From Bryoerythrophyllum caledonicum (Eukaryota; Streptophyta; Bryopsida; Pottiales; Pottiaceae), in assembly GCA_963971425.1 (NCBI GenBank), contig OZ020524.1, forward strand, positions 6,248,417-6,312,416: DNA of 64,000 bases. The letters run 5' to 3'. Made by a program: the position numbers and the translations under genes. The notes beneath the pieces were generated by a model that was not told the DNA's origin, did no database searches, and was given only the letters and a program-made list of their open reading frames with translations. Shown piece by piece: positions 26,610 to 59,805 of the stretch. The stretch's first letter is position 1; every line of letters starts with the position of its first letter.

Positions 26610-32827
<6,218 letters not shown>

Positions 32828-35476: not shown

Positions 35477-37869
35477 GGATGTGCAACATGTAGCATTTTT
35501 ATGCATACATCTTCGATCGGCTACATGCCGAAAAGTGCAGAGACTAAGGTTGGATGACCTATTACCACCACCAACCCCAGAATCAACAGTCTTTGTGGGC
35601 CAAAGCCACTAGCCGCCCACCCCATTTCCGAAATTTTAGGAAAGTCAGTTATGATTGGGTGTCAGTTTATAATTAGTTCAAAGCTCTCGATTTTTAGTCT
35701 CTTGCACAAGTGGTCATTAGCACAACTTACTGTGGAAGTAGAGAGTTTTGTATGTCAAGAATGGATCACGGCTTACTGTCCACTTTGGAAATTTGTAGCA
35801 ATTTCAATATGAAGAAATAAATGGTCACGACAATTGCAATGTTCATGAAATCCTATTTTGAATTCCCAAAAAAATTCTTACCACGTATGCAAACGCTATA
35901 AATAGGTCAGCAAGCTTAAGTTGGTGGTTATAGGTCATCCAACCTTATCTATAAAGCATATGCTAGTCCTTAAAGGGCTAGTATACTCCACCTTGAGCTC
36001 CATTAGTGCCCAGGTCATGTTCTAGGTCAGATTTATCCAAAACCAAGATATGTGCCGATTTATTTCTTTGAACTAACTTAGATGAAATAGAATGCCTAGT
36101 TTTAATATCATACTACTAAAATCATAATCCGCGCAGTGAACCAGGCAGCGATCAACCATGCAGTGAACCGTGCAATGAAGTATAGAAACGCTACAGTCAA
36201 CCGCGCAATTATTTGCGTGGTCAACGTGCAGTGAATCATGTTTTTTTTTTAGTAAAATAAAACTACATTGAAATGGTTGGACTATTGTGTTGCAAAGCAA
36301 GCGCCAATTGCTAATTACTGTGCGGTTTATTGCGCGGTTTTGAAATTTAGGGTCTTGAGTTTCTTGGTGTGTCAAATTTGCATTTGTGTGTTGCAATTTG
36401 TGCTCTTGATTACAAATTTGACGTTCAAAATATTTTTTGAGTTAACCACTTAAAGATTGAATTGTATATTATGAGTTGTAAACTTGGAGTACAAAAGTTG
36501 TGAAGTTGGAGTTGTGATCTTGGAGGTTGGCATACAAAGTTGGAGTTGCAAAATTGCATATTCAAGTTGTGGAGATTGAAATTACAAGTTTTGAGGTGAG
36601 ATTGCAAGTTTTGAGATTGTAATTGCAAATTGAGTTTGTGGGTGTGTGAAATTGAGATTGTAATTGCAATTGAGTTTGTGGGTGTGTGAATTTGAGATTG
36701 TAATTGCAAGTTGAGTTTGTGGGTGTGTGAAATTGAGATTGTAGTTGCAAATTGAGTTTGTGGGTGTGTGAAATTGAGATTGTAATTGCAAGTTGAGTTT
36801 GTGGGTGTGTAAAATTTGCATTTGTGTGTTGCAATTTGTGCTTATCCAAAATAAATTTGAAACTCTTGATTACAAATTTGACATTCGTAACATTTTTGAA
36901 ATTCCATGTGAAAATGCAAAAATTCTAAAACCTAATTTATTTTTTTCTATTCTATTCTATTACATTATTAAAATTCATGCATAGGTTTCAAAGACATATT
37001 TATATTTTATGTAGATTGTTGTTACCTTTCTTTTTTATATTTTGTGATATAAAAACTAGATTAAAATGGTTGAACTAATGCATTGCAAAGCAAGCGCCAA
37101 TTGCTAGTCAAACCTTAAAAAAATAAATTTAAACCATGACCTAAAATTGGGAAAAAATTGCACAACATCCAACAGATGATGGAATAGATTATAGTGTTTA
37201 AAGTCACCAAATATTGGTGTTGAAAATTGTGGACTTTGGAGGGTATACTACTTTATCCATCAATAGACTCTTGCCCAAAATTTTTACACTTTGAATAAAA
37301 GAAGCTCACATGTGCGTTAGGTTGATAGCTTTGCATTGACATATCATATGTGAAGAAAACATTTATACATGATTATTGATGGTTTTTTAACTTTTGTCTA
37401 CTCGATTGTATACAAAAATGTTACAAACTCATACAAATTAAATGGAAGTTTTGTATACAATGAGAGATATCAACAATCACAAACAATGAAGAATCTCTTT
37501 AAGGCAAAAAAATTCAATCAAAATTCAAGACCAAAATCATTTTGTATGTGTTTGAAAGACAACATAGTATTCTACATAGTATTCATTGTATTTTAGTGTA
37601 TTTTATGTATCTAATTTATTCCTAGCTTTTCCATGAGTTGATAAACTCCAAACCATGATTTGATTTTTGCAGAGTGTTCATGTAATGTGTGCGCAAATTT
37701 GAACTCCACATTCTATAGCCTATTTTTCATGGATTTCATTTAAATTGAGTTTTGACACTTCTAGAGTCCCATTTCGGGCCTCGTGAGCACTAAAGGATTA
37801 ATCCCTAAAGGCCCGCAACAGTTTAGCATCCACCTAATTGAAAACTGCCAGTTTCAATGCTTTCAACAC
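35477..37869. repeat. Intergenic repeats, including a ~41-bp tandem array at 36590-36830
   Basis: Bases 36590-36830 hold about five to six units of GAGTTTGTGGGTGTGTGAAA plus TTGAGATTGTAATTGCAA; the open frames on the other strand (HTHKLN repeats) are just this array. The sequence CATTGCAAAGCAAGCGCCAATTGCTA at about 37080 (first 20 bases quoted: CATTGCAAAGCAAGCGCCAA) duplicates 36290-36315, and both are followed by similar DNA. A family 1-like end (AAAGGATTAATCCCTAAAGG) at about 37792-37812 suggests one or two abutting TTAA elements. No genes. Confidence 0.55.
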
Positions 37870-38336
37870 AAGAAGAAGAAGAAGAACTCCGGTCTCTAAA
37901 AGAGGCCGGCGTGAATAAAGTGTTTGTTCGTTCCACTACTAAGGTGATGCCCACTGGGCAAAGGTTTAGTAGGATGGAACTACTTCCCCCTCTCGAAGGT
38001 AGACACTATAAAACAAAACATATGTAATGCCTTACGGTAGATTATTAGTATTGTTGATGGTGGATGTGGTGAATATAGTTTAAGTTAGGAGGTATGTGGG
38101 TCGGGTAGTGGTTGGTTGTTTTCTAGTCGTCTTTTATGGAGGAGGATGGACATTGCATGTTGGATAGCAATGGTGTTAAAGTTTCTAAAAGTATTTCGAA
38201 TGGAGGACTTTGAGATTTTAAATGTTTTTTCGAGTGATTCCATAGACGGAGTGTGTGTAGTAGCTCAGGCTCCGGCTGTGATAACTATTAGTGGGTCTAC
38301 TTTCCACCCTAATGTACTTATTTCATCTAGCAGGGG
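37870..38336 (-). pseudogene. LINE ORF2 C-terminal extension and 3' end
   Basis: After the stop at 38337 the same strand still encodes PLLDEISTLGWKVDPLIVIT, which is also found in copies 1 and 3, so the stop is probably secondary and the ancestral ORF2 was longer. The 3' end is a short CTT microsatellite (AGAAGAAGAAGAAGAA on the plus strand at 37871), shared in degenerate form by the other copies and likely the recognition tail for target-primed reverse transcription. Confidence 0.65.
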
Positions 38337-39543
38337 CTAATATTTGTTTATCTTGTGCCCTATTGTTTCTGGTGAGAACCTGTCGTTGCAATAAGTGAAT
38401 TCTATGAATTGAATTGTGATGTTTGGATTTGGATTTGTTGGTGGGGGGTGATTGTGTGGTACTCCACGGAGGCATAGTAAATCTGGTTTAAATCGAGCAT
38501 TGCAGTGGCATCTTTGGGTAGTACATTTACATGGTAGTAGCCATTGTGGAACAGTATTTTTTGGTGAGTTATTTTGAAAGATACCGACATTCATTAAGGT
38601 AAAACACCTAGATTTACTGGATGATATAAGTATTTTTCTGATTTCCCATACCGCTTTGTCATGTCTTTTTACAATGAGTGCGTGTATGTGTTGTTGTTGG
38701 CATTTAAGTAATACATGTAGCCAAGTATCTGGGTCGGTGGAATTACATATCGGGCATGTGATGGAGGGGAATCTTTCACGACCAAAGAAGAGCTGTTTCC
38801 GAGCATTTCCCATATATTGGCCAATTCTAAATTTTATGATACATGTTTTTTGTGAGTCTGTGATAAGGGGGTTTGTCCAAAATTCATTGGAGAGTTCATT
38901 TTCGATGTTTCTATTTCCTGTCCATTTTTCTATATTTGGAAATTTTCTAGCTAATTCCATTAAGTTGTTGTCTAAATCGTAACGTTTGAGGTATTTAGGT
39001 AAGAACCTTATAGGGCCTTTGTCTGGAATTTCTTCCATAGATGACCATTCCTTCCTTTGATAATAGTGTGGAGTGGGGTGGGCATGTTCATATGGTTCTC
39101 TCGCTTCTCTATGGGCTTTTTCTCTACCTATTTTTGCTAGTTCGTCCGCTTTTTCGTTGCCTTCAATGTTCACATGTGCTCTTACTTTGTGTATTGATAT
39201 AGGTTGGATTCGTGTTCGTAGCATTTCCACCATTGATGCTAAGATAGTTTTGTCTGGGTGGCCATTGAGCATAGTAGGATGTTGAATTTGTGTGTTTAAT
39301 AGGTATAGCACATTTATGCAGTCTGTAAATATGTGGGCAAGCTCATCTGGGTATTTATCCTTCAAGATTCGAAGTGTTTTATGTACAGCCATCATTTCAG
39401 CTCTAATGATGTTTTGGAGGCCTTGTAGTCGTTTAGCTATTTTGATGTCTTTTGGTGCGTTATATATGCCAAATCCTGCTCTTTCTCTGTGCCAGTGCCC
39501 TGGACTTACTTCAGTGGGTTCTTTAAATGATCCATCTGTGTAC
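38337..39543 (-). pseudogene. LINE ORF2: RNase H domain and zinc motif
   Basis: Open frame starting YTDGSFK just after a TAG (39544-39546). RNase H catalytic residues are visible: the D of YTDGS, the E of RAEMMAVHKTL (about 39400), the D of HIFTDCINVLY (about 39330), and the H and D of VRAHVNIEGNEKADELA (about 39190). It is followed by NARKQLFFG and a CPICNSTDPDTWLHVLLKC zinc motif (about 38705-38760). The end is FIEFTYCNDRFSPETI. RNase H would remove RNA from the cDNA hybrid. Although open for over 400 codons, it is separated from the RT by stops. Confidence 0.85.
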
Positions 39544-42500
39544 TAGCTGTATTCTGGATTGAACTTTAGAGGTAAGTTTGTGTTATAGGGTGGGAGTGGT
39601 GTTAAGGTGGTTGTGGGTGTCTGATTTATGCTAGGGAGTTTAACTTTGGACCATGTCTTGTTTCGGTTAACTTGGATGGGTGCTAGCGTTGGAGGGGCTA
39701 AATTGGCATAAACTTGTTGTATGTTTAGAGTATTGATTAGTAGTTGAAATTGTTCTATATTTGTTTGGAGGCCTATTGTATTGTTTTGGTGGTGTATGCA
39801 TAGTATTTGTAGGGTGGATTTTTCTTTCCTGGGCTTATTTAATTCTTCTGGTATGGTAGGTTCAAAGTATGTTAAGGTATCTGCAAGGAATAGGCATATG
39901 ATGTGGGAGTCTAGGTAAGGACCACTGTGAGGGTTGGAATTTTGGTACCAATTTTCATGTGGTAAGTCAAGATATGTTATGTTTCTTGGGTTATTTTTTG
40001 CTGCAAGTCTAGCCTAGTGTAATGATTGTTGGGCCTCTTCTTTATTGTGTGGGTGGGCATATCCTATGCCTTCCCATTTGTAATCAAATGCTTTGCCAAA
40101 TGAATCGAAGATTTTGTCTCTAGAGAAGGGGGAGAAATTTTTTGTTATTTTAGTGGAGCATGTGACCGGGGATGAGAAGTAAGAGTGTTGAATGTTGTGT
40201 GTTGTGGTAAAGAAGCCAAGCAGTTCCGTTGGTATGGTGTAGTGTGTTCGTTTAAGGGGGTCCGTTTTAGGTATTCTATATTTGTATCTCTAATAGAGCC
40301 AAACGACTTCAGTTTCAAATGGTTTGGTTGCCGGTTCTAAATTGTGTGGGGTATTTAGTGCTTGGTGATATTGGTTCCAGAGCCATTCGAGCCTTATGGT
40401 GGGGATAGTGATTAGGTATTTTCCATCATTTTCATAGATATGTGCTTCGTTTTGTTGAATTTGAATGGTATGTTGTTGTGTGGCAATGTCTTTTTGTGGA
40501 TTGCATTTGGTGATATATATTTTTGCCAAAGGGATTTGTGTGGGGGGGTGACCGATCTTGTATCTCTGCATTGAGCTTGTGGGTGATGTGCTTGTATGAT
40601 GTTATGATAGAATTTATTGGTTTTCTCTTGATAATATTTTTTAAGGCATGTTATGTTGTGGGATGCGGTATTAGGGTCATGCCATGGAAATACAATTTTG
40701 TGTGTGTGCCATTGACTATAAATGTTTTCTTGGATTTTCCATTGGCAAAGGTATGAAGTTTTTTCTATTTTGATGTCATTAGAGTCGTGGTATGTACGTT
40801 GTTTATGTTGTACTATAGCATACATTGGGTATGTTGTGGGGTTTTTTAGTATATATGGAGGTGGTTTTGAATATCGTGGTTGGGGTAGGTCAGGGGGATG
40901 GATAGGTGGAGTGGGAATATGGGGGATAGTATTGTTGTTGGGGCAAATATATCTTTCTTTGAGTGTACGGGGATTTGGATGTTCGTTGCAGGGGTGGGGG
41001 CATGTGTCAAGACATTCTGGGAGACAAAAGAGTTGTTTTGTTAGGTTTAGTGCACTTTTTATTAGTCTTGTGGATTTGAAGTGATATTTGTGGAATTCAT
41101 TTTCGTTCATTAAATGTGAGCCATTTGGTAGGGTGATTTGGCTAAGTGTAGTGATGTTTGCGGTGAATAGTACTTGTAGTAATTTCATCGATGTTTGCTC
41201 CCTTAGGTGTGGGAGTGTTGGGGTTTCAGTTCTCGACATGCATTCTAATGGCGCCGGTGTTGTAAGGAAGTTGTTTAAGGTACTTTTTAGATATGTATTT
41301 CCTTCCTTTTTGAGTAGGAACAGTGTTCTAGTAAGTGGAGATCTATAACAGTCTGAGCTTTTAATTCTAGATAAATATTGTGCTCCCCCATATTTGGCTA
41401 GTATGAAGTGTAGTAATCCATTGTATATTTTCCCTAATCTCCCTTTGTCATTCAACGCATTCAAGAGTTGCTCCCCAATGCATCGTAGATAGCCGTTTTT
41501 TAGTGAAAATGTTTCTAGACCAAAGTGGTTGTGTGGTAATTGTGTTATTACGTTTGAGGTGCATTTTGGGAGTCCACAAATTGATTTTTGTGCTGCTATT
41601 ATTTTTTTGTCGAGCTTTTTTATAGTAGGCATTGAATATGGTAGAGTATAGAAACTATATGAGATTCCTGGTCTAATAACTGTATCTATCATATTAATTT
41701 TTTGTCTCATACTAGCCGGACAATTAATTAGTGCTTGACATTGATTGTTGAGTTTTGTAGTTGTAACATGAGCCTGGATTTTCCATTTTAGTGAAGGTAC
41801 CATTTGGGCGCCTAAGTATACATATGCTTCATTTTGGTGTAACACAGGGATTGGTTGATTACGGTAATTGATGTTTGTGGCCTGAATTTGTGCCTTGAAA
41901 GCTGTGGGGTTCATTTTTTATTTATTAGGGGATCCGGTGACTGCGCATTTGGATACCCCAACATCCATTCCGGTCCACTTACAATATCTATCTATTTTGT
42001 TTAATTGAATTTGTAATGATTTTAGTTTACCGGAAATGGCTGCTAAATCGTCTACGTATGCAGCAAAGGTGACAGTGGTTTTTGATGTTCTAAGTGTATA
42101 TCCATTATTACCACGTTGGAGCCATCTTAATAAAGGTTCGGGAAATATTATAAAGAGATATGGGCTAAGTGTGTCTCCTTGAATTGTGCCTCTTTGTATG
42201 GGAATAGGGTGTGTTTTACCGAAATGTTCTTGAGTGAATGTGGTGGTAGAGTGTGAGTAGATATTTCCAACTAGAGTAGCTGCATCTTTTGGATAGCCAA
42301 GGTCAATCATGAGAGAAAGCAATCTTGCGTGATCTATTGAACCAAATGCATTTTTGAAGTCTACATAAAGAATATATATGTCTTGTTTGGTAAGTTTGGC
42401 GTCTTCTAGCGGAGCTGTTAGTGTTTGTATTTGTCGGGAAGTACTTCTTTCGGCTCGAAAGCCTGCTTGACTGTCATGTAATATGTTGTGTTTTTCTCCA

Positions 42501-42962
42501 TATGAGGATAAGATTGAGGTTAATGTACTGGTGTAAAGTTTATAAATGGTGTTGGCTAGGGCAATGGGTCGGTGGTTTGTTAGTATGAAGGGTTCTCCTT
42601 TTTATAGAGTAGTATGGTTAGGCTATTTTTCCATAGTTGAGGAAAATGTTTTTGTCTATAGCAGTGTTTAAAGAAAAGGTATAAGAATTTATGGAATATT
42701 TCTGGCATATTCTTTAGTATGGAGTTTGGAATACGATCTGGTCCGGGGGCTTTATTGCTACTTATTTTTTTCAAGCACATATCATATATTTCTTTTGTAA
42801 AGTATGTCTGAATTGGGATGTTAGATTCACCTCTTTTTTCTAGTACAAATCCATCCAAGTCGTGCCATGGGTATTCTCTGACATTGCAAGTACAATTTAT
42901 TAAGTGTTCAGATTGATTATAGCATGTGGGTATCGTAGGTTTGTTTATTTGTGATTGTTGTA
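39544..42962 (-). pseudogene. LINE ORF2: reverse transcriptase and connection region
   Basis: Resumes after the Tc1 insertion at QQSQINKP. RT blocks in order: NKAPGPDRIPNSILKN (about 42750), DSQAGFRAERSTSRQ (about 42465), YVDFKNAFGSIDHARL (about 42350), RGTIQGDTLSPYLF (about 42170) and the catalytic FAAYVDDLAAIS (about 42045). The YVDD box has both Asp residues. Then VYLGAQMVPSLKWKIQAH and a long connection. Lesions: frameshift near 42600 in an A-run, in-frame TAA at 41918-41920, frameshift near 40500, TAA at 40290, a TAG near 40015 where copy 4 has TGG, and a TAG at 39544-39546. Not functional. Confidence 0.85.
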
Positions 42963-43535
42963 CAATAGGGTGACATTCAAATTGGCCGTTTAGTAGTTCC
43001 AGGGATAGTGTCCTACACTGCTGCCAACTTTGACACCCTCCCCAAAGCTGAGAAATTGTTATTTTACCATGAAAATTTGGGGACAGCATCATATTTATGT
43101 TGAAAACATGCATACCAAATTTCAAGTCCAGGAGACTTATACAAAAAAACTTATGCAAGATCTACCAACATGGGATAGCTGTGAGAAAAGTATCACAGCT
43201 GCCAACTTTGACACCCTCCCAAGAATTGAGGAAATTTTTTTTGCCCATGAAATTTTTGGAGCAAGAACATTTTTATGTTGTTTGCATGTGTGGAAAATTT
43301 CAAGTCCAAAAGACCCATTCAAAAAATAATATTCCAAATCTACCAACATGTGTAGTTTTGAGAAACAAAGGGGAAAACCATTTTACTACTTCCAACTTTG
43401 ACGCCCTCCTTAGGATTGAATTTTTGTTGATACATAGTGAAATTTTTGGCACAAGATCATCTCTACGCTGGTAACATGTGAGATAAATTTCAAAGCCAAA
43501 AGATGTACACAAAAAAGTTATTCCATATCTACCAA
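42963..43535 (+). repeat. Left inverted repeat of Tc1 element A
   Basis: Contains three tandem subrepeats starting near 43024, 43201 and 43392. It matches 45167-45742 in reverse complement nearly base for base; the apparent 125-residue ORFs in both arms are mirror images of the same DNA, not genes. Confidence 0.85.
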
Positions 43536-44539
43536 CGTGTATGTCCTCCATTAGCGTCAATCACTGCTAGTAACCTAGAGGCCATAGAATGACATAGTTG
43601 AAGGAGCTTTGTACCATTGACTAACTTCCACTCTCTTTCAAGAACTACCTTCAACACATCTAAGCTTCTAGGGCATTGTTTGCCATGTTGCACAACATCT
43701 CTTCACATCCTCCAAACATTCTCGATTGGATTGAGATCGGGAGAGTTTGCAGGCCAATTGAGCTTTTTGACAAGGTGGCTTTGTCTCCATTCTTCACATA
43801 TTTTGCTACTATGGACGGGTGCCCCATCTTCCATAAGCACTCCTTATGGAATTTGACCCATGAAATGAACCAATTTGGCATCGTAAACCACTTCTATAAA
43901 ATCCTTAGCAGAACGTTGACATTTAGGCATAAAGACAAGTTCTGATTTTTGTCCTCCGGCAAATGCGCCCCAAATCATTAAAGAAGTCCTTCCACTTTTA
44001 AAAGTAGGAGCTAGACGACTTGATGAATAACGCTCGTATGCACTTCTCCAAACATGAATTTGCCGAGAATTTTTTCCAATTTCAAAAGTAGATTCATCTG
44101 TCCAAACCACACGCTCCCACTCTTTTGCACTCCATCCACGGTACTTCTGAGCAAAAGCTAATCGTTGAGACATGTGACGAGGTGTCAAAAAAGGTTTTTT
44201 GACTGCAATTCGACTAAAAATGCCATTTTTATGTAAGACCCTTTGAATAGTACGTCTACACACTTGAGTAGGACATGCATTGGTAATCTCTGAGAGTGAA
44301 GAGCAACGATGAATTTTTTAGTAATGCACAATACTACGAATATCTCTATCACTAAGTTTTTTAGCGTGACTTCCACCGCAAGGTTTGCGCTTGTAGGTTC
44401 CATCTTCTCTAAATGTTTTTACTAACCTTGTAACTGTTCTAATAGGAACTCCAATAGTAGCTGCAATTTGAACTCTTGTAAATCCTCCCTCACTCAAACC
44501 TATGATGCGAGCATGAATTTCATCTGAAATTGCCATCAT
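43529..44539 (-). pseudogene. Tc1-like DD34E transposase (element A), three nonsense codons
   Basis: One reading frame of 336 residues, the usual Tc1 length, from MMAISDEIHARIIGLSEGG at 44539 to HTRW-stop at 43529, whose stop lies inside the inverted repeat. N-terminal helix-turn-helix region: GFTRVQIAATIGVPIRTVTR. Catalytic region: VVWTDEST (first D), LMEDGAPVHSS (second D), SPDLNPIENVW (E). There are 34 residues between the second D and the E. Stops at 44318-44320, 43844-43846 and after NVWRM inactivate it, with no frameshift. It would cut and paste the element at TA sites. Confidence 0.88.
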
Positions 44540-45166
44540 AAACTTATAGAGTGCGTGATGCTAGTTACAGCAGTAGAGTAGGGGTTAGAGCAGAGCAAGG
44601 GGGAGAGAAGGGGGCCAAGGGGCTAGAGCAGGGCAAAGGGGGTTGCAGGATTGACACGTGACAATTGGCAGAGGAAGGAGAACGGGGCTGGAGCAGAGCA
44701 AGGGGGAGAGAAGGGAGCCAAGGCGCTAGAGCAGAGAGGAGAGAGAAGGGTCGCCAAAATACAAGCCCATATGCATACATGAAAAATCGTTTTGTTCTTA
44801 ATCACTCATCATGTATGCCCAATGTGAATCAACACTCATGCATCCGACAATACAACACTCTCTGTTTTGAGGATTGTCTCAACATTCAGTCTATCACAAA
44901 TCACACACACCATTCCCTTTACATAATGTTCAATAGATATTTAGAAGAAATTTTTTGTCATGTGTCTAATGCACACTTTATGGCCAAGTGGATTCTTCTG
45001 CATGGAACACCTCTTCACTTCTTCACTTAGATGTTATTGATCTTTTTGAGAAGCATTTATGTTTGGTGGCTTACTCACATGATTGAGCTCAATGAAAAAC
45101 CATGAGGTGTCAAAGATATTTTGACATTTTCAATATGACCTTCAAATTGTTTATCATAGTTACACA

Positions 45167-45742
45167 TGTTGATAGATATGGAATAACTTTTTTTATGTAT
45201 GTCTTTTGGCTTTGAAATTTATCCCACATGTTACCAGCGTAGAGATGATCTTGTGCCAAAAATTTCACTATGTATCAACAAAAACTCAATCCTAAGGAGG
45301 GCGTCAAAGTTGGAAGTAGTAAAATGGTTTTCCCCTTTGTTTCTCAAAACTACACATGTTGGTAGATTTAGAATATTATTTTTTGAATGGGTCTTTTGGA
45401 CTTGAAATTTTCCACACATGCAAACAACATAAAAATGTTCTTGCTCCAAAAATTTCATGGGCAAAAAAAATTTCCTCAATTCTTGGGAGGGTGTCAAAGT
45501 TGGCAGCTGTGATACTTTTCTCACAGCTATCCCATGTTGGTAGATCTTGCATAAGTTTTTTTGTATAAGTCTCCTGGACTTGAAATTTGGTATGCATGTT
45601 TTCAACATAAATATGATGCTGTCCCCAAATTTTCATGGTAAAATAACAATTTCTCAGCTTTGGGGAGGGTGTCAAAGTTGGCAGCAGTGTAGGACACTAT
45701 CCTTGGAACTACTAAACGGCCAATTTGAATGTCACCCTATTG
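45167..45742 (-). repeat. Right inverted repeat of Tc1 element A
   Basis: Reverse complement of 42963-43535. A few differences are visible at the inner end (for example TTGATAGATATGG here against GTTGGTAGATATGG). Confidence 0.85.
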
Positions 45743-45958
45743 TACAGTGGGGTACAGTTTGCTTACGAATTCTGGCCGCAGTGCAGGACAGTGAAAAAAC
45801 TGGGAAACTTTGGAATGCAATAACTTGCTCAAAAATTGACGGATTTTGGAATTTCAAATTGCGTTGGAATGCTAGTGAAGTCTACTTCAATATTACAAAA
45901 AGTATATACATAAAAACTTGAAAAATGAATAAGTATTTGTATTTTCCTTATACACTAT

Positions 45959-46373
45959 CTACCACCTAGTGCTTCCACCTCTAGCTGAGATCACTGCTTT
46001 AATACGATTGGGCATAGTTGAAATGAGGCATTTCAATTGCTCTAAAGGAACCTCATCCCATACTTTCTGAATGCATTCTATCAATTCTTGCTTATTTTGT
46101 GGCATGCTATGGTAACGAAGCCAATCTTTGAGTATCTTCCAAATGTTCTCAATTGGATTTAGATCAGGTGAGTTTGAAGGCCACTTCAACTTCTTCATGC
46201 CATAAGCTAGTCTCCAATTCTCTGCCAACTTACTTCGATGAATAGGAGCTCCATCTTCCATGAGAGTGAGGTCATGAGGATTATCGTGCATGAAATAAAA
46301 CCCGCTCAAAGTGCTTTCATACACATTTTTCACAAAATGTGCAGCAGTTCTTTCTCCTTGAGGCATAATGACT
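45959..46373 (-). CDS. Tc1-like DD34E transposase, C-terminal part (element B; rest in the gap)
   Basis: About 137 residues are visible: VIMPQGERTAAHFVKNVY, then LMEDGAPIHRSKL (catalytic D), KWPSNSPDLNPIENIWK (catalytic E), ending GGSTRW-stop. There are 34 residues from D to E. The first catalytic D and the helix-turn-helix region must lie in the N run. The visible part has no stop or frameshift, unlike element A, so B may be younger or intact. Confidence 0.85.
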
Positions 46374-46573
46374 NNNNNNNNNNNNNNNNNNNNNNNNNNN
46401 NNNNNNNNNNNNNNNNNNNNNNNNNNNNNNNNNNNNNNNNNNNNNNNNNNNNNNNNNNNNNNNNNNNNNNNNNNNNNNNNNNNNNNNNNNNNNNNNNNNN
46501 NNNNNNNNNNNNNNNNNNNNNNNNNNNNNNNNNNNNNNNNNNNNNNNNNNNNNNNNNNNNNNNNNNNNNNNNN
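46374..46573. other. Assembly gap (200 N) inside Tc1 element B
   Basis: Exactly 200 N, the same size as the other gap, so a placeholder. It begins in the transposase ORF and ends at the inner edge of the right inverted repeat, where a repeat-induced collapse is plausible. The long frame joining this transposase to the LINE across the gap is not a real protein. Confidence 0.97.
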
Positions 46574-46684
46574 GAAATTCCAAAATCCGTCAATTTTTGA
46601 GCAAGTTATTGCATTCCAAAGTTTCCCAGTTTTTTCACTGTCCTGCACTGCGGCCAGAATTCGTAAGCAAACTGTACCCCACTG

Positions 46685-48970
46685 TACATAGATTTCATTG
46701 GCAATTTCTTCTGGATTTGTGAGAATGTTTCCATGCTCGTCTATGATGCAGTCAAGGGCATGTGTTGTGTTGTTTTTGAAGACTTTTTTATTTATCTTTT
46801 TGGGGGTTTTATCATATAATTGTCTATATTTTGTGATGGCTTTTTTGATGCACTCTTTGTTGTATGTGGTTGTGATTTTGCGAGCAAGTTTGTTGGCTTG
46901 TTTTGCTATTTGAGCTATATCGGATATCCATGATTCTATAAGGATACCATCCACCGGTGGTTGGGGTATATTTGTATGTCTATGGGTTTGGATGCTATTG
47001 ATTATGGGGTGGTTCTGCCAGTTTGGGTTGTTTTTAACTGTGCGTATGGTTTTACGGATGAGGTGATAGGTTGATAAATGTTTTTTCCAGGGTTTAGCAA
47101 GTTTTCTTGATAAAAAACCTCCTTGTTGTGTTGTCCTTGGGGTAAGTTGTGGTAGAGGTTCTGCTTTACATGTTTGTTCTAATGTTGCAGAGATTTCTTG
47201 TGTTAGTATGTCTAGTGTATTACAAGCTTCTAGCCATTGAATGTCTGTGAGGTTTGTATTATTGTTTAGGGTGTTAGTCATTTGTTCTATTATAGATGAA
47301 TTTTTTTCAAAATAGATACTATGAAATCTTTCTATGTTTTCAGATGGGATAGGGTTTAATATTCTTGTGGTATTATTATTTGTTGTTTGAGATGTTCTAC
47401 TAATTAGTGTATTGTTGGGGATGTGTAACTCAAGTGGGTAATGGTCGGAGTTTAGGTTATTTTCCGTATTGGTTGTACATGAGTATTGTTGTCGGATGTG
47501 GGTGTTTATATAAAACCCATCTATTAAACTTGTTTCAGTGTAATTATAGCCACCTTGTCTTGAGAAATTTGTGTTTGTGTTAATGTATGTTAATTGTAGA
47601 GTTTCTATGTAAGTTCGCCATTGGAAGTCTAATTCTTGGGGGGGTGTTAAGTTATTACCAGTTCTTCGTCCTATGAAGGCGATGTCTCTGTTGAAGTCGC
47701 CTGTTAAAATATGGGTGAAGTTTGGGTGATTCTGTATTTGATTTGTGATATTGGTTTGTATTTCGTGTATAAGTTGGATATCTTCATGGTGTGAGGGCAT
47801 GTATATATGTATAAGTAGCCATGGTTGAAGTGGTTTATTTGTAATTTTTATAATTTGTAAGTAAGGTGATATGTTGGGAGGGGTAGGAATTTTTGTTATG
47901 TTACCGGGAAATGCATATGATTTGTTGATTAATGTTAATAGTCCTCCACGGGCGGGGATGTAGGGTCTTCTTTGTTGTATGCATCTTGTAAGACCAAGTG
48001 TATTGTTGAAGATTAGTTTGTATTCTGGAAAGAGTCTTTCAATGTATTTTGTAGATTTTGTGGAAGTAATTTTTGTTTCTTGTATGAAGATGATGGTTGG
48101 ATTTGTTGGGAGTTCAATTAACAGGTTTTGGATGCTAGGGAGTGTTGTGTTTAGTGATGCTACGTTCCATGTTATGAAATGCGTGTTGTGTTGGTTGTCT
48201 AACGATGGTTGTGGTGGTGGGGAGATGTGAGTGTTGTTGGGTGGGTGTGAGTATTCGGGAATGTGATTTAGGCATTTAAGTGATTCTATGATTATTTTAT
48301 CAGGGAGAAATGGAAATTCTTCTTTTAATGTGAGGGGGTCCGCTGTTGTAGTTTGTCTGTGGATACTTTTGTAGATTTTGTTGTGAATTGAATCCGTTGG
48401 ATTTGTTATGTTGTGATTATTTTTTAGAAATTGGGTATATATATGTTCGATAGTGACATGTCTTTCGGGAGGGTTGTTTAGGGTAGAAAGTTTGTGTAGT
48501 AGGGTTTTTGTCCAATCTGGGTTGTCGTTTTGGATATTTGTGGAGATTATGGAGTTGCATGTTTCTATAGACGGATGGATTGTTATTATAATGGCGTATA
48601 TAATATGAGTTGGTGGGAAATTTGAAAGACTTTGGATGTATTGGGATAATTGGGGATGTGTGTTGTTATATTCATTGTTGAGTACGTGGGTGGGGTTCAC
48701 GAGTGGGGAGTATATTTTTGCTAAATGTTGGTATTCTGGCTGAAATTTAATCGTAGATGGAATAAAATAGATAATTGCTGGTTTTTTGTGTATTGAGGGG
48801 TGGTTTTGTAATATGTTTGGCATAGGTCCAGGGTTTAATTCAATGTCACCACTGAGTAGTAGAAGAAAAGTTATGTCTATATTTTGTTTTGACGATTTTA
48901 TATTTGTGATTTTAGTTGAGATTATTTGTGTTTGCAAGGGTATGCATTTATTATACGTACGATGGTTCAT
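46685..48970 (-). pseudogene. LINE ORF2 N-terminal part: 2A-like peptide and AP endonuclease
   Basis: Start chosen at the ATG at 48970 (MNHRTYNKC), giving 49 residues up to the end of the 2A motif. Residues 41-49 are GDIELNPGP after a Leu-rich run. Residues 50-263 are Pro/Asn/Ile-rich and unrecognised. The endonuclease follows at about 264-515: HFITWNVASLN (N268), IFIQETK (E298), ILTGDFNRD (about 424), SLIDGFYI and NSDHYPL (about 508-513). These are the metal and phosphate-binding motifs of the exonuclease III-like fold that nicks target DNA. The frame is open for 762 codons to EIYV, where the Tc1 insertions begin at TA 46685-46686, so this part is intact although the gene is split. Confidence 0.85.
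48824..48850 (-). other. 2A-like ribosome-skipping motif in LINE ORF2 (GDIELNPGP)
   Basis: GDIELNPGP matches the D-(V/I)-E-x-N-P-G-P consensus at which ribosomes skip the last Gly-Pro bond, preceded by a hydrophobic LLLLS run as in other known 2A sequences. Skipping would release a ~48-residue leader from the endonuclease-RT protein. N-terminal 2A sequences are known in the L1Tc retrotransposon of trypanosomes and in several animal non-LTR elements. Activity here is untested. Confidence 0.85.
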
Positions 48971-49642
48971 GAAATTTGTGGGAGGGCTTTGGACTGTAGA
49001 GTAGTGGAGTGAATTTTGTGATGGTAAAAATGAGAAAATAGGGAGAGAACTAGGAGGTATAATGGAAAGTGAGGAGATGGAGAGTAAAGAGGTGCGGGGT
49101 AGGTTAAATAGGGTGAGGAGTGTGTGATTTGAGAATGGAAGAGTGGTGTTCCTAAGTAGAGGAGTGGGAGATTGACAAATAAAAGAGTAGTGTTCCGAGG
49201 AAAAGGAGTAAGACGTGGGAGTATAGATAGTTCTAGAAATATTAGAGTAATAACTAATGGAAAAGGTTGTGGGTCTAGCACGTAGAATTTTGAACAAGAA
49301 AAGAGTAGAAAATAAAATGTTAGTAAGGAATAGTAAATAAAGAGGTTGTGGAGTAAAATGTGAACAAATAAAAAGTAGGATATTGGGAATAAAATAGAAA
49401 AGAGAGTGGATAAGAAAAGAAAGATTAAAAAGAAAAAGATTGTAGAGTACGATAGTATAAAATAAGAGAGAGAATTCAAAGGTTAGTGGTATTTTCTTTT
49501 TAAAATTGATGTTTGTTTCTAAGGTTTTTTAGTATTTATAAATACTATATTTAAATTTTTAAATTTTTTTGTATTTTCTTAGTATTTTTAAATACTTTGT
49601 TGATTTTTTGTTTTATATTCTCCGCCGTTCCATTTGTCCAAA
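48971..49642 (-). other. Region between LINE ORF1 and ORF2
   Basis: The frame upstream of the ORF2 ATG stays open to about 49297 without an ATG, but is Ser/Thr/Pro/Leu-rich and low in complexity, so more likely leader than protein. On the plus strand 49000-49480 is purine-rich (AGTAGAGG, GAAAAGAGTAGAAAA). Bases 49500-49600 have AGTATTTATAAATACT-like palindromic words. Confidence 0.5.
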
Positions 49643-51193
49643 CTAGTTTGTTTGGTCCATGGATTCATCCGGTAGCAACTGATCCATGATAGCCATGGAG
49701 GACTTCATTTGATTCTGCAAAAGTCTTATCTCTGCGCGGAGTGCACTCGTGTTCTTGATTTGCTCCATTTGTACGGTATCCACATAGGTTTTGGCCTCCG
49801 AAACAATCACTCCTTTGAGGTTATCCATCTCTTGCCGAATTTCTCCCATAGTGGCTTTCGAGCTTTTGGCAATCGCAACATCAATTAGATTATTAATGTC
49901 TTTTTTACTAAACCCTAGCCTCGTTAGCTCCTCCGGGCTCGGTTTCAATTTTCCATCCATACTACATGGGTGTGCAATAAATTCCACATACTTGTTAAGC
50001 ATTTTCTCACATTTGTTTAGATATTTCTTGTAAACCGCAACATTTTTGCACTCCACATTGCAACTCCCCACATGTTTTTCATTCTCAAGTCTAAAATAGA
50101 TGCTAACAACATTTTCTTCCCCCATAAATCTTTTGATGGGTGCTTCTAGCTCATGGGTGGACTTGGTTTTGTTCAAGTTTTGAGCAATTAGAACCACAAC
50201 ATTTTTTTTAGCTTTCTCATCCTCCGTCATTTTTCCCTGTTTAGCAAACACTGGCATAAACACCTCACTCTCCGCATAAATCTTTTGGTTTTTTAATTTG
50301 TAAGCTTCATTCGGTGTTGGTGTTTTCACCCATGCAAAATCTGCTACTTCCTTCTTTGTCACCGTCGTTACCTCATGTTCTACTCCTCTTTTAAACCCTT
50401 CATTCACAATTTCAAAGAGGACCTCAAACCATTTCTTGTTTTTTAGGGAGGGACTGCTAATTCTTACGGATAAGAGTCCTTGGATTGCAATGGAGTCAAA
50501 GGACTTGCATACCTTACCCCTCACGAAGAGGGTTTCATCCAATTTTAGGATGAAGGGACGAGTCCCTGTGAGGAGGCTACATCCATCTATTTCAGGAGCT
50601 TTTAGATGAATTTTTACTACACCACTCCATTGATCCGACTTGTGAAGGCACATTATGGCAATTGGTTGTGCCATTCGATCCCCCAATGCTATTTCCATAT
50701 GCGCAAGTCTTTCTCTAACCAAGTCCAACACTTCATCTTTAGAGAGTACACACTCTCCAATCTCAAAAGAGATGGCTACTTGGTAATCAAGGGAAAAACC
50801 AAATTCATCCACTTCCACATCACATCGTAGTTGGGTTAGATTTAGATGGTTCCCCTCTTTCCCATCACCTCTGGAGTTGGGCCATTGCTCTTGTGTGACG
50901 TATGGGAAGGACACATTCGCATCACATGCCTCTAGCGCTTCCTTATCGTTCATTCCTTCCAACTTCATCTCATTTACACTGAGGTGTTTGACTCTAGGAC
51001 CCTCACAAAGTTGTCCCAAAGCATTCAAAGCATGAAATCCAAGCCAATATGGAGGTCTCACACGTTTGACTGAAATTACCTCGAGGGATGTGCATGCCCC
51101 TTCCTCCAAGTATAATCGTTTCGTGGGTGTCACGTCCATGTCATTCGTATCAAATTTGTTGGAGCACGAAGATGCTTCAGCTGGTGAGTACAT
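49643..51193 (-). CDS. Probable LINE ORF1 protein, 516 residues
   Basis: An open frame from an ATG at 51193 (MYSPAEASSC) to a stop at 49643, on the LINE strand and just upstream of ORF2. No domain is recognised with certainty. The middle contains CDVEVDEFGFSLDYQVAIS and SVRISSPSLKNKKWFEVLFE. The C-terminal part has KPSPEELTRLGFSKKDINNL and then a coiled-coil-like stretch (about 440-505; EIRQEMDNLKGVI, LRAEIRLLQNQMKSS). A coiled coil fits ORF1 proteins, which bind element RNA, but the assignment rests on position. The frame stays open upstream to 52588, but that part is Cys/His/Leu-rich and unlike protein. It could instead be an independent gene. Confidence 0.55.
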   Translation of the reverse strand: MYSPAEASSCSNKFDTNDMDVTPTKRLYLEEGACTSLEVISVKRVRPPYWLGFHALNALGQLCEGPRVKHLSVNEMKLEGMNDKEALEACDANVSFPYVTQEQWPNSRGDGKEGNHLNLTQLRCDVEVDEFGFSLDYQVAISFEIGECVLSKDEVLDLVRERLAHMEIALGDRMAQPIAIMCLHKSDQWSGVVKIHLKAPEIDGCSLLTGTRPFILKLDETLFVRGKVCKSFDSIAIQGLLSVRISSPSLKNKKWFEVLFEIVNEGFKRGVEHEVTTVTKKEVADFAWVKTPTPNEAYKLKNQKIYAESEVFMPVFAKQGKMTEDEKAKKNVVVLIAQNLNKTKSTHELEAPIKRFMGEENVVSIYFRLENEKHVGSCNVECKNVAVYKKYLNKCEKMLNKYVEFIAHPCSMDGKLKPSPEELTRLGFSKKDINNLIDVAIAKSSKATMGEIRQEMDNLKGVIVSEAKTYVDTVQMEQIKNTSALRAEIRLLQNQMKSSMAIMDQLLPDESMDQTN

Positions 51194-51745
51194 TCTACAA
51201 AGCATAAAGAAGAGATATAAAGTGTTGTTTTGAAGTATAGGAGCATTTCCATAAGATCCACTAATCCTTCCATTCCACAATTTAAGTTGTGGGCCGTGTA
51301 GGAGAGGAGAGTGGACTAGGAAAAGATTTTGTTGCAATATGTTCAGGTATAAGAATGTATCAAATATGATAACTCTTTCCCTGCACTTGCTGATTGAACT
51401 TAGCTGACGAAAGAAACAAATGCTATTGTAGCAATGCTCTTTCCTAATGCTAACTAAACAAATATGTATACAAGCATGGATAAAACAAATGTTATATCCT
51501 ACTACCTTATTACTATTACATATCTCACATTGCATGATATCAATACTATCAACAATTCTCCTACACATTAAGCTTGACACATACCAAATATCATTACATA
51601 GTTTGCTACTTCTAATACATACTGCAAAGAGACACTTCGTAGATACACCATAAAATTTGATGGTGTATCTTTCCAAATAGTACAATTTTATATCAAGTGC
51701 ATAAAACATACAATGATGGTTTACACAAACCTCACAATGTAAGAA
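51194..51745 (-). other. AT-rich stretch upstream of ORF1, no gene recognised
   Basis: Open on the minus strand by chance (residue content dominated by Cys, Ile, Leu and Tyr). It could be the LINE 5' UTR or an intron of a gene with exons at 51.75-52.7 kb. Confidence 0.4.
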
Positions 51746-52700
51746 CTCTCTACCATAGCAACACCAACCTTGTGGGTTTCTTGTATATGGTTTGGCCTCC
51801 TTTCTTGGCTTCTTGTAACGTTCTCTTGCCGGTACTTCCAGGGGGATCACTCTTCTTTCTGACGACGTTATTGTCTTCCAGAGGTTCTGTCTGCCTCTTG
51901 GCAGACTTTCCTGTTGTCGCCAGCATACCCTCTGTCGGTTCGATGAAAAAGAGGTCAGTTTATGGTGGGATGGTTGATTCTGGCGGTGGGGCATAGGAGG
52001 TGGGGACAATCTCATCTCCGCATAGGGACACACCAGCTCCGAGTTTCTTCTCTGGTTCGGGGGACTCTTACACATCGTTTGACAGTTCTCCAGATTCGAG
52101 TGCTCCCGGTATCTCCTTTGTTGGAGCAGCACTGAGCTGCTTGTGAGGCTGGAGTTTGCCGTGCTCACGGGCGTACAACACTTCGAGGTACGATCTTCCC
52201 GCAGGTACACATCGGGACAACAACACGCCGCTTGGAAAGTAACTCCACGATTCAGCCAGGCCGAGTCCGATACTGTGCTTTTCTTGCGGCCGCTCCGTGC
52301 GAGTCGTTGCTTGTCTTCCTTGTTCAGATGTCTCCAAGGGGTGATAACTCCTCCGAGTGGGCTGGTCCTGTAAGATACAGAGCGGTGTGGAAGTAGGAGC
52401 AATCCAGGATGTGGTGGTTGCAGGAAAGAAAAATAAATCAGCAATGGTACGGAGAGGGAAATGTTCACCGTAACTTGTGGACTCGGCCCGTGGTGTTGGG
52501 CCCGTAGACGAGCGAGCAGGTGGTGTGCATGCGCGCCGGGGAGACGCGCGGCGACGTCGAGACGGAACGGAGCCGGGGTTGTAGGCACGGCGCGACACTA
52601 GCGAAGAAAACGCCCCGCGGGAGCTTCTCGGACGGGAACGCCGCCAGCACCACGATCAGGTTGCGCTGGCTTGCCACCACCCACTGCACGTACTCCACCT
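51746..52700 (-). CDS. Candidate exons of an unrecognised gene
   Basis: GC content rises sharply and several frames look protein-like: [20 protein letters not shown] with [14 protein letters not shown] (about 52698-52590), [19 protein letters not shown] with [20 protein letters not shown] (about 52270-52070), and [18 protein letters not shown] (about 52040-51980). They lie in different frames, so introns or frameshifts separate them. I do not recognise the family and cannot set exon borders. It might be the 5' part of the LINE or a host gene. Confidence 0.3.
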
Positions 52701-52780
52701 TCCCCTGCTGGACTGCTCCACGGTTCGGAACGTCTTGTTGTGTTGCCGTTCACGTCTACGTTGGTCAGAAGTTCCGCAGT

Positions 52781-54220
52781 TTATGTGTCGGAGAGACAGA
52801 AGAGAACGCGCTTAGCAATTATGGTGCTAGCTAAAGAGGGTTTGTGGCGTCTGCAAACCTGGTATTTGTAGTAATATGGGCCATCTAGGGTTTCAAGTTT
52901 CTGTTGAGGATTTGGTGGCTGGCTGCGCGGCTGCTTAGGGTTTGATGTCGCAGATTGTTCTCCTAGCCGGACGATCTTTCCTTGATGGTTGAGACTCAAC
53001 CTTCGATTGCGCACTAAATTTGGTGGTGATGATACTGCCGTTGCTGGAGTTGTTGCAGGGTTCGGCGTCAGTTGTCGGTCATGGTACTTGAGATGGTTGG
53101 CGAGTTGTGCTTTGTCCTTGAGCTTGTATGTTTGCAGGCTCCAGTGTTTGGTGATGTCTCTCTGGAAAGGGCTTTTGTCGACATTGGTTTTCACACGCGA
53201 AATTCTTCTGCTTGGGCGAAGTGTGCTTTCTTGTGCTATTCTCGCGTCCTTGTGGTGAGGTATTGTTGCTGTTTTGGATCTGGAGCTCCTCCTCCATGAT
53301 CCGTGCTCCTCTGGTTTTTTGCTATAGACAGAGATTTGAGGTATCGACGTAGTGTCTTCTCTCAATCTTGACAGTGTTGTGTCAAAAGGTTTCTTCTGTA
53401 GTCTTTTGTGCTGTTGCGCGCTTCTGCTGGTACGCTCTTTCCTGCCTCGTGTGTCTTCACTATGGTCTGTGCAGTTTGGAGAGGATTCGTAGGGAGGATC
53501 CACATTGTAAAGGTTAGTATATGATTTCATTCTGGATCTAGAGCTCCGCCTCCATGCTCCGTCCTCATCTAATTCTTCTCTGTAAACGAAGATATGACAT
53601 AGCAACACAGTAGCTGATCTTGACCTTGTCGGTGGTGTTGTATTGTCGGCAGGTTTCTTCTGCCATTTCTGCGTGTCTTCCACTTGGTCAGTGCATTCGG
53701 TAACAGCTTCGCAGATCCGAGAGTCTACATTGTTTTGGTTAGGATCTAGGGGTAGTAAGTCTTTACGAAGCATTAGAGTGTAGCTAGATTGGACTTTTGA
53801 TCCGGCTGTTCGACCTAAGCAGTAGATACATTTTGTATTCTTCGTGTAGACTGACATTAGGACGTAGCACCAGGTAGAAGCATGGAGTGTTGTGGTGTGT
53901 GCATTTAAAATGTATTGATCTAGTACTAATGTTTCAAAGCTAATCGCTATGTTATGTATGTATGACAAACTGTGAATGAGAACTGATAGCAATGAAATGC
54001 AAGTGCAAAAGAAAGTGTAAGAAGTAGCATGAGATGGAAGGTGTTTGCTGTAGTTGTTGATGTTGAACGCCGTCTCCATTTTGTAAAGGTGAATGTCAAG
54101 TTCGGGGGTAAGGAATGGACTTGTGGGAGATCCGCAACCGCTCATCAATACCATTCTAGATCTGGACTCTATTCCACTTCGAAACTGATCTAACTGGCTT
54201 AGATCAGAATTCCAACACAA
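52781..54220 (-). CDS. Long open frame with a two-copy repeat, function unknown
   Basis: 479 codons open from MCWNSDLSQLDQFRSG. The N-terminal 150 residues look unlike protein (His/Ser/Leu-rich). The middle has two diverged repeats, centred on GAWRRSSRSR and GSWRRSSRSK, matching a ~258-bp direct repeat in the DNA (GGATCTGGAGCTCC at about 53276 and GGATCTAGAGCTCC at about 53534). The end is basic and Pro-rich. No domain recognised. A tandem-monomer 5' region of the downstream LINE is an alternative, since LINE promoters can be built of repeated monomers. Confidence 0.3.
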   Translation of the reverse strand: MCWNSDLSQLDQFRSGIESRSRMVLMSGCGSPTSPFLTPELDIHLYKMETAFNINNYSKHLPSHATSYTFFCTCISLLSVLIHSLSYIHNIAISFETLVLDQYILNAHTTTLHASTWCYVLMSVYTKNTKCIYCLGRTAGSKVQSSYTLMLRKDLLPLDPNQNNVDSRICEAVTECTDQVEDTQKWQKKPADNTTPPTRSRSATVLLCHIFVYREELDEDGAWRRSSRSRMKSYTNLYNVDPPYESSPNCTDHSEDTRGRKERTSRSAQQHKRLQKKPFDTTLSRLREDTTSIPQISVYSKKPEEHGSWRRSSRSKTATIPHHKDARIAQESTLRPSRRISRVKTNVDKSPFQRDITKHWSLQTYKLKDKAQLANHLKYHDRQLTPNPATTPATAVSSPPNLVRNRRLSLNHQGKIVRLGEQSATSNPKQPRSQPPNPQQKLETLDGPYYYKYQVCRRHKPSLASTIIAKRVLFCLSDT

Positions 54221-54489
54221 GGTCGCTCGCTTGCAGAATTCACCTATTCAAGTCTGAACCAGATTTCCACGTTTCTCCACAAGTAATATACAGATCTAGA
54301 TTATGAGCATCACCCAACACACGTACTACAATCCCCCGACCTCCGTAGACTCAGATCTGCAACAAACAAGAGCTCCCAACAAGTCCAGCCACCTCTTGTT
54401 GCTTGTGAGTGCTAGAAATGAGTCTAAGTCCTTCCTTCCCCTTCACCTGAAATTGTGGAGCTCACTCAGCCATCATAACCCTCCCGCTT

Positions 54490-54850
54490 TCAACACAGTA
54501 TGCAGATAAACTCAATTTTTACATATATAACCATAGGATCTTGTACTAGAATTGTATAAGTGTATGTAGAATTTTTTTTGTTCAAATTGACCTCACGGAT
54601 TGAAAGATATTAACCTTGAAGTGAGACATAAAATCTTCTTGAGGTCATACCAAACACCTTTAAAAAACTTTGACCACCTTCTGTGGCAACTTTTGCACTA
54701 CAAGCGGTGAATTTATAGTTTGAACTTAAAAAAAATCATGTTAGGTACATGTGCACCAATTTTTAGAAGTAGAAGAGTGGTAGAAGGTGTCCTTAAATAT
54801 CTTGCAATGCAACTATGTGCAGGTAATTAACAATACACTTTAAGTTTTAC
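54490..54850 (+). mobile_element. TTAA family 1, truncated left half
   Basis: Contains CCATAGGATCTTGTACTAGA, ACGGATTGAAAGATATTAAC, AAGTGAGACATAAAATCTTC and AGGTACATGTGCACCAATTT. It matches the left half of the element at 58990-59805 read on the other strand. The right half is missing. Confidence 0.65.
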
Positions 54851-58993: not shown

Positions 58994-59805
58994 CCCCTAT
59001 AGGACCAAAGTCTCCTCAGGGGACATTTTGAGTTTGGGTAAGGTACCACGTTCTCAATTCTAGGCATTATTTTCTGAGATTTTGTATTGAATGGACAACT
59101 TTTGATTAGCTTTGCGTAGACACAAATTCCGTAGAATTCCGACTAACAATTTGAAAGTTACAATTTATTTTCACTTACATATTCAAATAGTGCAGCAATA
59201 TAGTGTGACATATCACAAATATTGTCACTAAACTTTAATAACTTCTAAACTCAATAGAAAGTCGAGTTTTTGTCCATTTAAAAGAAAGAAAATGTCCTCT
59301 TGGAAAGGAAATTGAGATCTTTGCATCTACCGTACAAATTTGTGAATTTCAAATCTTTGAGAAGGATATGATATATGCAAAATATAAATTGTATTGTTGA
59401 TTCTCAGCACATAGTTGCATTGCAAGATTTTTTAGGACATCTCTTACAACTCTTCTACTTCTAAAATTTGGTGCACATGTGCCTAACATGATTCTTTTCA
59501 AGTTAACACAATAAATTCACAGCCCATAGTGCAAAAAGTTGCCATAGAAGGTGGTCGAAGTTTGTTGAAGGTGTTTAGTATGACCTCAAAAAGAGATTAT
59601 GTCTCACTTCAAAGGCTGATATCTTTCAATCCGTGCGGTTAAACTTATCAAATTTTTCACCACACACTCTCATACAACTCTAGTACAAGATCCTACGGTT
59701 AAATTTTCGTAAAAAACATTTTTTATCATTTCGTGTTGAATGCGCTAAAAATGGCAGTTTTTGAGTGATTTTGAGGGGAAAATGTCTTGGTCCTTTAGGG
59801 GTTAA
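58990..59805 (-). mobile_element. TTAA family 1 element, inverted (816 bp)
   Basis: Starts TTAACCCCTATAGGACCAAA and ends TTGGTCCTTTAGGGGTTAA. On the minus strand it runs left to right like the other members. Its left half matches 54490-54850 closely, so these two form a subfamily. No ORF. Confidence 0.75.

Follow-up and report, generated by a model that had tools for sequence, protein, structure and literature searches.

Does a 2A-like (StopGo) peptide at the start of a plant retroelement protein act as a ribosome-skipping signal, and if so, what does it remove? The question is raised by a stretch of 64,000 nt from Bryoerythrophyllum caledonicum (contig OZ020524.1, positions 6,248,417 to 6,312,416; called the window in the following), whose minus strand carries a long interspersed element (LINE) with such a peptide ahead of the endonuclease and reverse transcriptase (RT) in its second open reading frame (ORF2). 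Judging from the evolution of this motif and its surroundings, we consider it likely that a plant LINE superfamily carries here a genuine 2A signal kept by selection, which would release a drifting leader from the ORF2 protein. The observed basis is the conservation of the motif, a jump in constraint at the motif, a reading frame kept open upstream of it and, in the loci examined, an overlap with ORF1 in the -1 frame.

A 2A-like motif ahead of the LINE endonuclease

On the minus strand, positions 48824-48850 encode the peptide GDIELNPGP, which is embedded in FLLLLSGDIELNPGPMPN. Together with the preceding leucine-rich residues it forms the motif LLLLSG-DIELNPG/P (LLLLSGDIELNPGP, 48824-48865, minus strand; the slash marks the skip site), and its context is FLLLLSGDIELNPGP followed by MPN. 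As the original prediction had stated, the peptide comes after a leucine-rich run; it begins at residue 41 (Gly) when the first in-frame ATG (48970) is taken as the start. The further claim that it precedes the APE endonuclease, RT and RNase H of a plant LINE ORF2 is borne out by profile matches: APE (PF14529, PF03372) lies in the same frame as GDIELNPGP, with RT (PF00078) and RNase H (PF00075) further downstream. A six-frame translation of the window contains a single NPGP, that of GDIELNPGP. The window copy has the 2A/StopGo core [DGCN][VI]ExNPGP, for which the residue composition gives a chance expectation of 2.6e-4 in the six window frames and 1.2e-5 in the ORF2 fragment, and which was present in 4 of 200,000 residue shuffles. 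The upstream hexapeptide fits a StopGo class as well: in Li et al. (2026; PMC12846837), LLLLSG is a named upstream class that is paired with Asp at p12, and Asp is found at this position in the window copy. Immediately past the skip site follows ATG-Pro-Asn (48815-48823, minus strand), and all 60 loci examined have this Met behind NPGP or what is left of it.

Copies of the motif across the genome

We searched the source genome of the window (437,360,962 bases in 894 contigs) for other copies, a check that the original prediction had proposed. The exact codon pattern of the motif gave seven matches and the reversed pattern none. The DNA pattern GGNGAYRTNGARNNNAAYCCNGGNCC, which represents GD[I/V/M]ExNPGP, was found 825 + 796 = 1,621 times against 0 for the reversed control; with one mismatch allowed the numbers were 2,372 and 1. 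A chance origin of the motif was considered and is ruled out by the shuffles, the composition expectation and the genome counts against reversed-pattern controls.

For the analysis of single loci we used two sets. Thirty protein-selected loci (L008-L037) are the best 30 of 144 matches listed for a query of ORF2 residues 1-265, and thirty pattern-selected loci (L038-L067) are the first 30 listed, all in the first 6.3 Mb of contig C1. The exact matches (L001-L007), several of which coincide with protein-selected loci, were excluded from later counts. Among the resulting 60 loci, 52 are non-redundant and 43 are distinct in their upstream sequence. Relatives of the RT, ORF1, RNase H or a degenerate LLL..2A pattern were not found in a viral contig collection, and two scans of a separate collection of genome contigs gave no relatives.

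Constraint begins at the motif

Next, we compared the 52 non-redundant loci in bins around the motif, using the mean pairwise identity and the ratio of the nonsynonymous to the synonymous proportion of differences (pN/pS). Upstream of the motif, where misregister inflates pN/pS because the comparison is ungapped, residues -50 to -31 show an identity of 0.12 and a pN/pS of 0.99, residues -30 to -11 show 0.18 and 1.04, and residues -10 to -1 show 0.24 and 0.71. At LLLLxG the identity is 0.69 and pN/pS 0.34, at the 2A core 0.83 and 0.17, and at MPN 0.97 and about 0.01 (0.014). The 20 residues past MPN have values of 0.60 and 0.36, residues 21-40 of 0.57 and 0.38, and residues 41-80 of 0.41 and 0.55. 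Constraint begins at the leucine-rich hexapeptide of the 2A. The motif is conserved above its upstream flank (pN/pS 0.17 versus about 1.0); as to other copies and to this flank, the proposed check came out in favour of the original prediction. A pS of 0.64 in the 2A core means that synonymous change is common there.

The protein-selected loci alone (27 non-redundant), which were not chosen by the motif pattern, gave pN/pS values of 0.94, 0.90 and 0.49 in the three upstream bins, 0.29 for LLLLxG, 0.30 for the core, 0.07 for MPN and 0.27, 0.31 and 0.43 in the three downstream bins. In gapped alignments of 113 alignable pairs from 48 of the 60 loci, pN/pS was 0.82 for the leader versus 0.286 downstream, and indels in multiples of three accounted for 169 of 379 in the leader and 26 of 95 downstream. 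Sequence evolution therefore points to a motif that is under selection and in frame with the sequence upstream of it.

Such conservation could also arise if LLLLxGDIExNPGPMPN were a structural N-terminal segment of a fused protein, kept without any skipping. This explanation gains from the residues downstream (MPNIL..HP..HKK..YFIP.TIK), which are about as strongly conserved, and from a clade lacking the core Glu (described below), which retains the rest of the segment. However, the conserved residues match a known StopGo class, hexapeptide included, and a nearly unconstrained upstream sequence would be odd inside a fusion, which makes a purely structural role unlikely in our view.

An open leader that drifts

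In the 43 upstream-distinct loci the motif frame is open upstream for a median of 210 codons, compared to 4 and 10 codons in the other two frames; it is the longest upstream frame in 40 of the 43 loci and reaches at least 100 codons in 32. Counting stops in successive 150-nt bins out to 600 nt, we found 9, 22, 31 and 23 in the motif frame against 117/131, 93/88, 102/91 and 89/77 in the other frames. Expressed as density, this is 0.4% in frame versus 5.6% and 6.2% in the nearest 150 nt and 1.0-1.4% versus 3.6-4.7% out to 600 nt, and the frames become approximately equal by 1,200-1,500 nt upstream. A frame that is kept open while its amino acids drift suggests that the leader is translated. Very probably, ribosomes translate an expendable leader that is removed from ORF2 by the 2A.

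The window copy has a 48-codon leader portion starting at the first in-frame ATG, the context of which is weak (48827-48970, minus strand), and a remaining in-frame open leader of 186 codons that is G-poor and contains neither a stop nor an ATG (48971-49528, minus strand). The 186 codons before the ATG were free of stops in 0 of 2,000 shuffles. The leader of about 48 residues in the original prediction is thus an accident of a decayed copy, as the median frame length of its relatives given above shows.

That prediction had also suggested that the leader might act as a signal. In one version of this idea it would be a targeting or signal peptide switched by partial skipping, for which the 2A of sea-urchin NLR proteins provides a precedent (PMC4981915), and the leucine-rich run does adjoin the skip site. 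However, the hydrophobic run in the window-copy leader measures only about 7 residues, and leader sequence, leader length and in-frame ATG positions vary between loci under near-neutral evolution. The leader peptide is not conserved (pN/pS 0.82 to about 1), which argues against a conserved signal peptide, and we regard this role as highly improbable.

A different objection is that ORF2 starts at the ATG right past the motif (MPN...), so that the motif itself would be 5' untranslated region or rarely translated. The Met found in all loci would agree with such a start, as would the weak context of ATG 48970 and the 15 of 43 loci that have no in-frame ATG in their open leader run, a run of 11 to 368 codons in those 15. 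But the upstream sequence is open for hundreds of codons in the ORF2 frame only, and the core amino acids are kept despite synonymous change; both would be unexpected in untranslated sequence, and we consider a start restricted to MPN very unlikely.

Departures from the 2A consensus

Several observations weigh against a genuine, selected 2A, in addition to the inflation by misregister. At p15, where Li et al. describe leucine-rich StopGo classes as favouring Ser (PMC12846837), the window copy has Leu, and the 30 pattern-selected loci have Thr (26) or Lys (4). The strict core is present in only 12 of the 30 protein-selected loci, and the other 18 mostly belong to a Glu-less group or carry a stop or changes such as NPRP, NLGP and NPEP. 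As anchored, all 30 keep the Asn, the last Pro and the Met behind it. Furthermore, the pattern-selected loci carry the core by construction, the protein query contained 48 leader residues, and many copies are related pseudogenes, meaning that the loci are not independent. The leader of the window copy is only marginal as coding sequence, its period-3 signal being reached by 35 of 400 shuffles, and with the downstream residues conserved too the motif is no isolated island.

A further point of this kind is the Glu position, which is Asn or Lys in 13 of the 30 protein-selected loci (GDI[N/K]PNPGP), and the strict 2A core is absent from the clade that most of them form. A 2A that may be weak or dead thus does not keep members of this clade from persisting. 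The original prediction had named copies without the motif as evidence against it; compared to the 1,621 matches to GD[I/V/M]ExNPGP, the DNA pattern for GDI[N/K]PNPGP occurs at only 10 exact genome places. After 17 of the 60 loci had been dropped for early stops, a tree of the remaining 43 grouped 10 of the 11 Glu-less rows in a single clade and placed L012 elsewhere; the Glu-less label requires 3 changes on it, compared to a shuffled mean of 10.3. The Glu-less clade is a natural counter-example and at the same time a natural test of the need for skipping. Loci with GDI[N/K]P are L015-L025, L027 and, separately, L012, and some of them have long open frames (2,705 codons in L016).

Entry into the ORF2 frame

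The window ORF1 has at least 159 genome matches, and with at most about 1,500-2,300 nt of upstream sequence examined per locus its C-terminus was found ahead of the motif in 29 of the 60 loci, 22 of them protein-selected and 7 pattern-selected (30 loci in each set). The motif often lies downstream of the ORF1/ORF2 junction, separated from the ORF1 stop by a spacer of 286-1,210 nt. In 26 of the 29 loci the open run beyond the ORF1 stop is longer in the -1 than in the +1 frame (the exceptions are L009, L025 and L037). An unbroken open run from inside ORF1 to the motif is present in 10 loci, 8 times in -1 and twice in +1; only this split is informative, since the frame of ORF1 itself is excluded by its stop. 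The loci, related and non-independent as they are, thus have the overlapping -1 downstream frame of a programmed -1 frameshift.

Two results count against entry by this route. A conserved slippery heptamer was not found where ORF1 ends (AAAAAAC occurs at -112 in 3 of 29 loci, others singly), and we do not class the junction as a programmed frameshift. In addition, the frame from ORF1 stop to motif is -1 in 15 of 29 loci, +1 in 10 and that of ORF1 in 4, the window copy being among the last. The mixed frames fit leaders broken by indels, without being proof of it.

The ORF2 frame could instead be entered only by termination and reinitiation in the spacer, with no -1 frameshift at all and with the 2A trimming a variable reinitiation leader. 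The spacer lengths and the lack of a conserved heptamer favour this, as do one family without detectable ORF1 (see below) and an ATG that 20 of 22 window-group loci have 9 nt past the ORF1 stop and that mostly opens a very short frame; a -1 frame that is open through the ORF1 stop, in contrast, is not needed for reinitiation downstream. This alternative concerns the entry step and not the 2A, and its chances overlap those of a genuine 2A signal; we see it as a serious candidate, if at somewhat less than an even chance.

For a genuine 2A signal, we propose the following course of translation. Ribosomes would enter the ORF2 frame well upstream of the motif, in ORF1-bearing families at or near the ORF1 end and in the -1 frame, either by frameshift or by coupled reinitiation, and would then read through a G-poor leader that can drift freely in sequence. 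At NPG/P the Gly-Pro bond would not be made and the leader would be released, together with ORF1 if a frameshift was used, and translation would continue into an ORF2 protein with the fixed N-terminus Pro-Met-Pro-Asn. The Met past the skip site may act as a second start that yields nearly the same protein. The 2A would detach the endonuclease and RT from anything upstream, so that leader, spacer and start site could change freely. In its most far-reaching form, two recodings would be coupled in one mRNA of a major plant LINE lineage, namely a -1 (or equivalent) entry into ORF2 at the ORF1 end and StopGo after a sequence-free leader, which fixes the ORF2 N-terminus; we put this forward tentatively, a little below the point where we would call it probable.

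A young family without detectable ORF1

An open frame of 3,087 codons is common to 33 of the 144 matches listed in the protein search. We read one copy of this family (C1, about 3619467-3629363), which retains GGDIETNPGPMPN. Behind its GGDIETNPGP come MPN and an ORF2 part of about 2,350 codons that includes RT and RNase H; endonuclease motifs were read from the translation. The copy has the shared 3' end, (TTC)n and a candidate target duplication TCTTGGTATTTG. Compared from the 5' end over 2,590 bp, it showed no difference from a second copy, located on C12. In-frame ATGs are located 170-262 codons upstream of GDIE. The 5.9 kb examined gave no match to the window ORF1 with an E-value below 3.0.

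The leader of L068, which belongs to this family, contains a degenerate second 2A-like stretch KLLILIGGDINTRPNTT about 98 codons upstream of the intact 2A, which suggests that the 2A region was duplicated. The ORF2 of the family also carries a PCIF1-type domain between RT and RNase H (PF12237, E 9.8e-12; residues 1312-1450 of L069:2-6208, where L069 is C1:3622901-3629400), the family of the cap m6Am methyltransferase. It has a weak match to PCIF1 chain 6irx (E 0.047). The catalytic motif of PCIF1 is NPPF; it was not seen in the L069 translation, and with AHPH near that place the domain is probably not catalytic.

The element and its neighbours in the window

The whole LINE (copy A) spans 37870-54485 on the minus strand and has a (TTC)n tail and a target-site duplication GTGTTGAAAGC at 37859-37869 and 54486-54496; a relative of its target site without the insertion is present at 59368-59841. 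APE endonuclease and RT, the target-site duplication and the fact that no long terminal repeat was seen identify it as an APE-type non-LTR retrotransposon. The RNase H lies 3' of the RT as in the I/Ingi-type clade, a domain that occurs also in other LINE clades, and in a comparison with solved structures only, R2 ranks above L1 for the RT. ORF1 (516 codons, 49643-51193, minus strand) is coding according to its period-3 signal, which was matched by 0 of 400 shuffles. On the same strand, the 5' part of ORF2 past the skip site (46694-48826) comprises an N-terminal region and the APE endonuclease with the motifs ITWNVASLN (48175), QETK (48082), TGDFNRD (47704) and SDHYPL (47449). RT (PF00078, 41921-42601) and the region following it occupy 40415-42601 with an in-frame stop at 41918-41920, and a frame-shifted 3' part (38340-40013) contains a linker, RNase H (YTDGSF..) and a C-terminal Cys/His finger recognised by reading the translation. 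ORF2 is interrupted at 42959-46691 by DNA transposon insertions with Tc1-like DDE_3 and HTH_Tnp_Tc3_2 pieces. These are two neighbours, a Tc1-like piece with a gap of 200 N (46374-46573) and an element whose 558-nt inverted arms (99%) flank an HTH_Tnp_Tc3_2 frame. With these insertions, the in-frame stop and the frame changes, copy A is dead. Structure predictions from single sequences gave a mean predicted local distance difference test score (pLDDT) of 32.5 for ORF1 and 34.8 for the ORF2 N-terminus and were not used as evidence.

Three partial copies lie on the plus strand: copy B (60268-64000), whose likeness to A starts inside the RT, the 3' part of copy C from RNase H to tail (1-1740, ends approximate) and the 3' end of copy D (14363-14795); none of them contains the 2A region. 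Between A and B we calculated a pN of 0.23, a pS of 0.73 and a ratio of nonsynonymous to synonymous rates (dN/dS) of about 0.10 over 798 codons from slightly overlapping pieces, which argues that the family evolved under selection.

From just past the ORF1 stop, the sense strand is depleted in G (38340-49640, minus strand), with about 5-17% G per 400 nt outside the insertions and 4.6% at third codon positions of the ORF2 5' part; ORF1 has about 24% G. This is an abrupt compositional border inside one element, and the leaders of the 43 loci are G-depleted as well. Because its G content is unlike that of ORF2, ORF1 (49643-51193) had been suspected to be a foreign or template-switched piece; with an ORF1 C-terminus ahead of the motif in 29 of the 60 loci, we rejected this idea. 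The 5' region of the element contains a stop-free run of 488 codons (52784-54247, minus strand) without a period-3 signal, the longest run in 400 shuffles being 222. Elsewhere in the window there is a tandem array of a 41-nt unit (five copies, 93% matches, 36611-36816), and two kinase exons lie within 30671-32400. The best PDB matches of the first exon are 'Protein kinase' 3hgk/2qkw (the plant kinase Pto), SYMRK and FERONIA, which marks the host as a plant.

Comparison with known systems

In the present genome the LINE copies with a 2A number well over a thousand, and some are young. This offers many naturally diversified 2A sequences tested by evolution, the Glu-less clade included, and a very probably translated segment whose frame is preserved while its sequence may change, plausibly owing to its removal by the 2A. 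If our reading is true, it would represent a natural, genome-scale use of StopGo in plants, giving the same ORF2 N-terminus whatever the leader. The case is also relevant to the balance that LINEs strike between ORF1 and ORF2 protein. As a tool, StopGo is in wide use in plants, yet almost none was found in plant viruses (PMC12846837), where natural use has not been found. 2A function in plant cells is on record (PMC4981915 and PMC12846837), and an N-terminal sea-urchin 2A is described as functional in N. benthamiana (PMC4981915). Our literature search, which did not reach key papers such as a survey of eukaryotic 2A, found no plant LINE with a 2A, and priority cannot be claimed.

Known LINEs with a 2A come from other hosts. 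L1Tc and Ingi elements combine APE, RT and RNase H with an N-terminal 2A. In animals, 2A sequences reportedly occur in CR1, L2, Rex1 and Crack elements and are said to be linked to one-ORF elements (Odon et al. 2013). The moss elements resemble these animal ones in having a 2A in an APE-type LINE, and the family without detectable ORF1 would fit the one-ORF link; they differ in having RNase H, in keeping both ORF1 and 2A in ORF1-bearing families and in their plant host. L1Tc/Ingi, like the present LINE, is of APE type with the 2A ahead of the endonuclease. The present LINE differs from L1Tc/Ingi in its plant host, in a leader that is long and unconstrained, in an ORF1 that 29 of 60 loci have upstream and in the -1 overlap. 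Trypanosome L1Tc and other elements are established LINE carriers of a 2A (cited in PMC4981915, PMC11512398 and PMC5972666). With the viral LLLLSG-like StopGo class (PMC12846837) the motif shares the hexapeptide and D-I-E-x-N-P-G-P, but here it belongs to a retroelement and has Leu or Thr instead of Ser at p15. The sea-urchin NLR 2A likewise lies near an N-terminus (PMC4981915), whereas the LINE leader contains no conserved signal peptide. Compared to known LINE 2A sequences, those described here stand apart by their plant host, by a leader that is kept open under almost no constraint, by its -1 overlap with ORF1 and by their scale.

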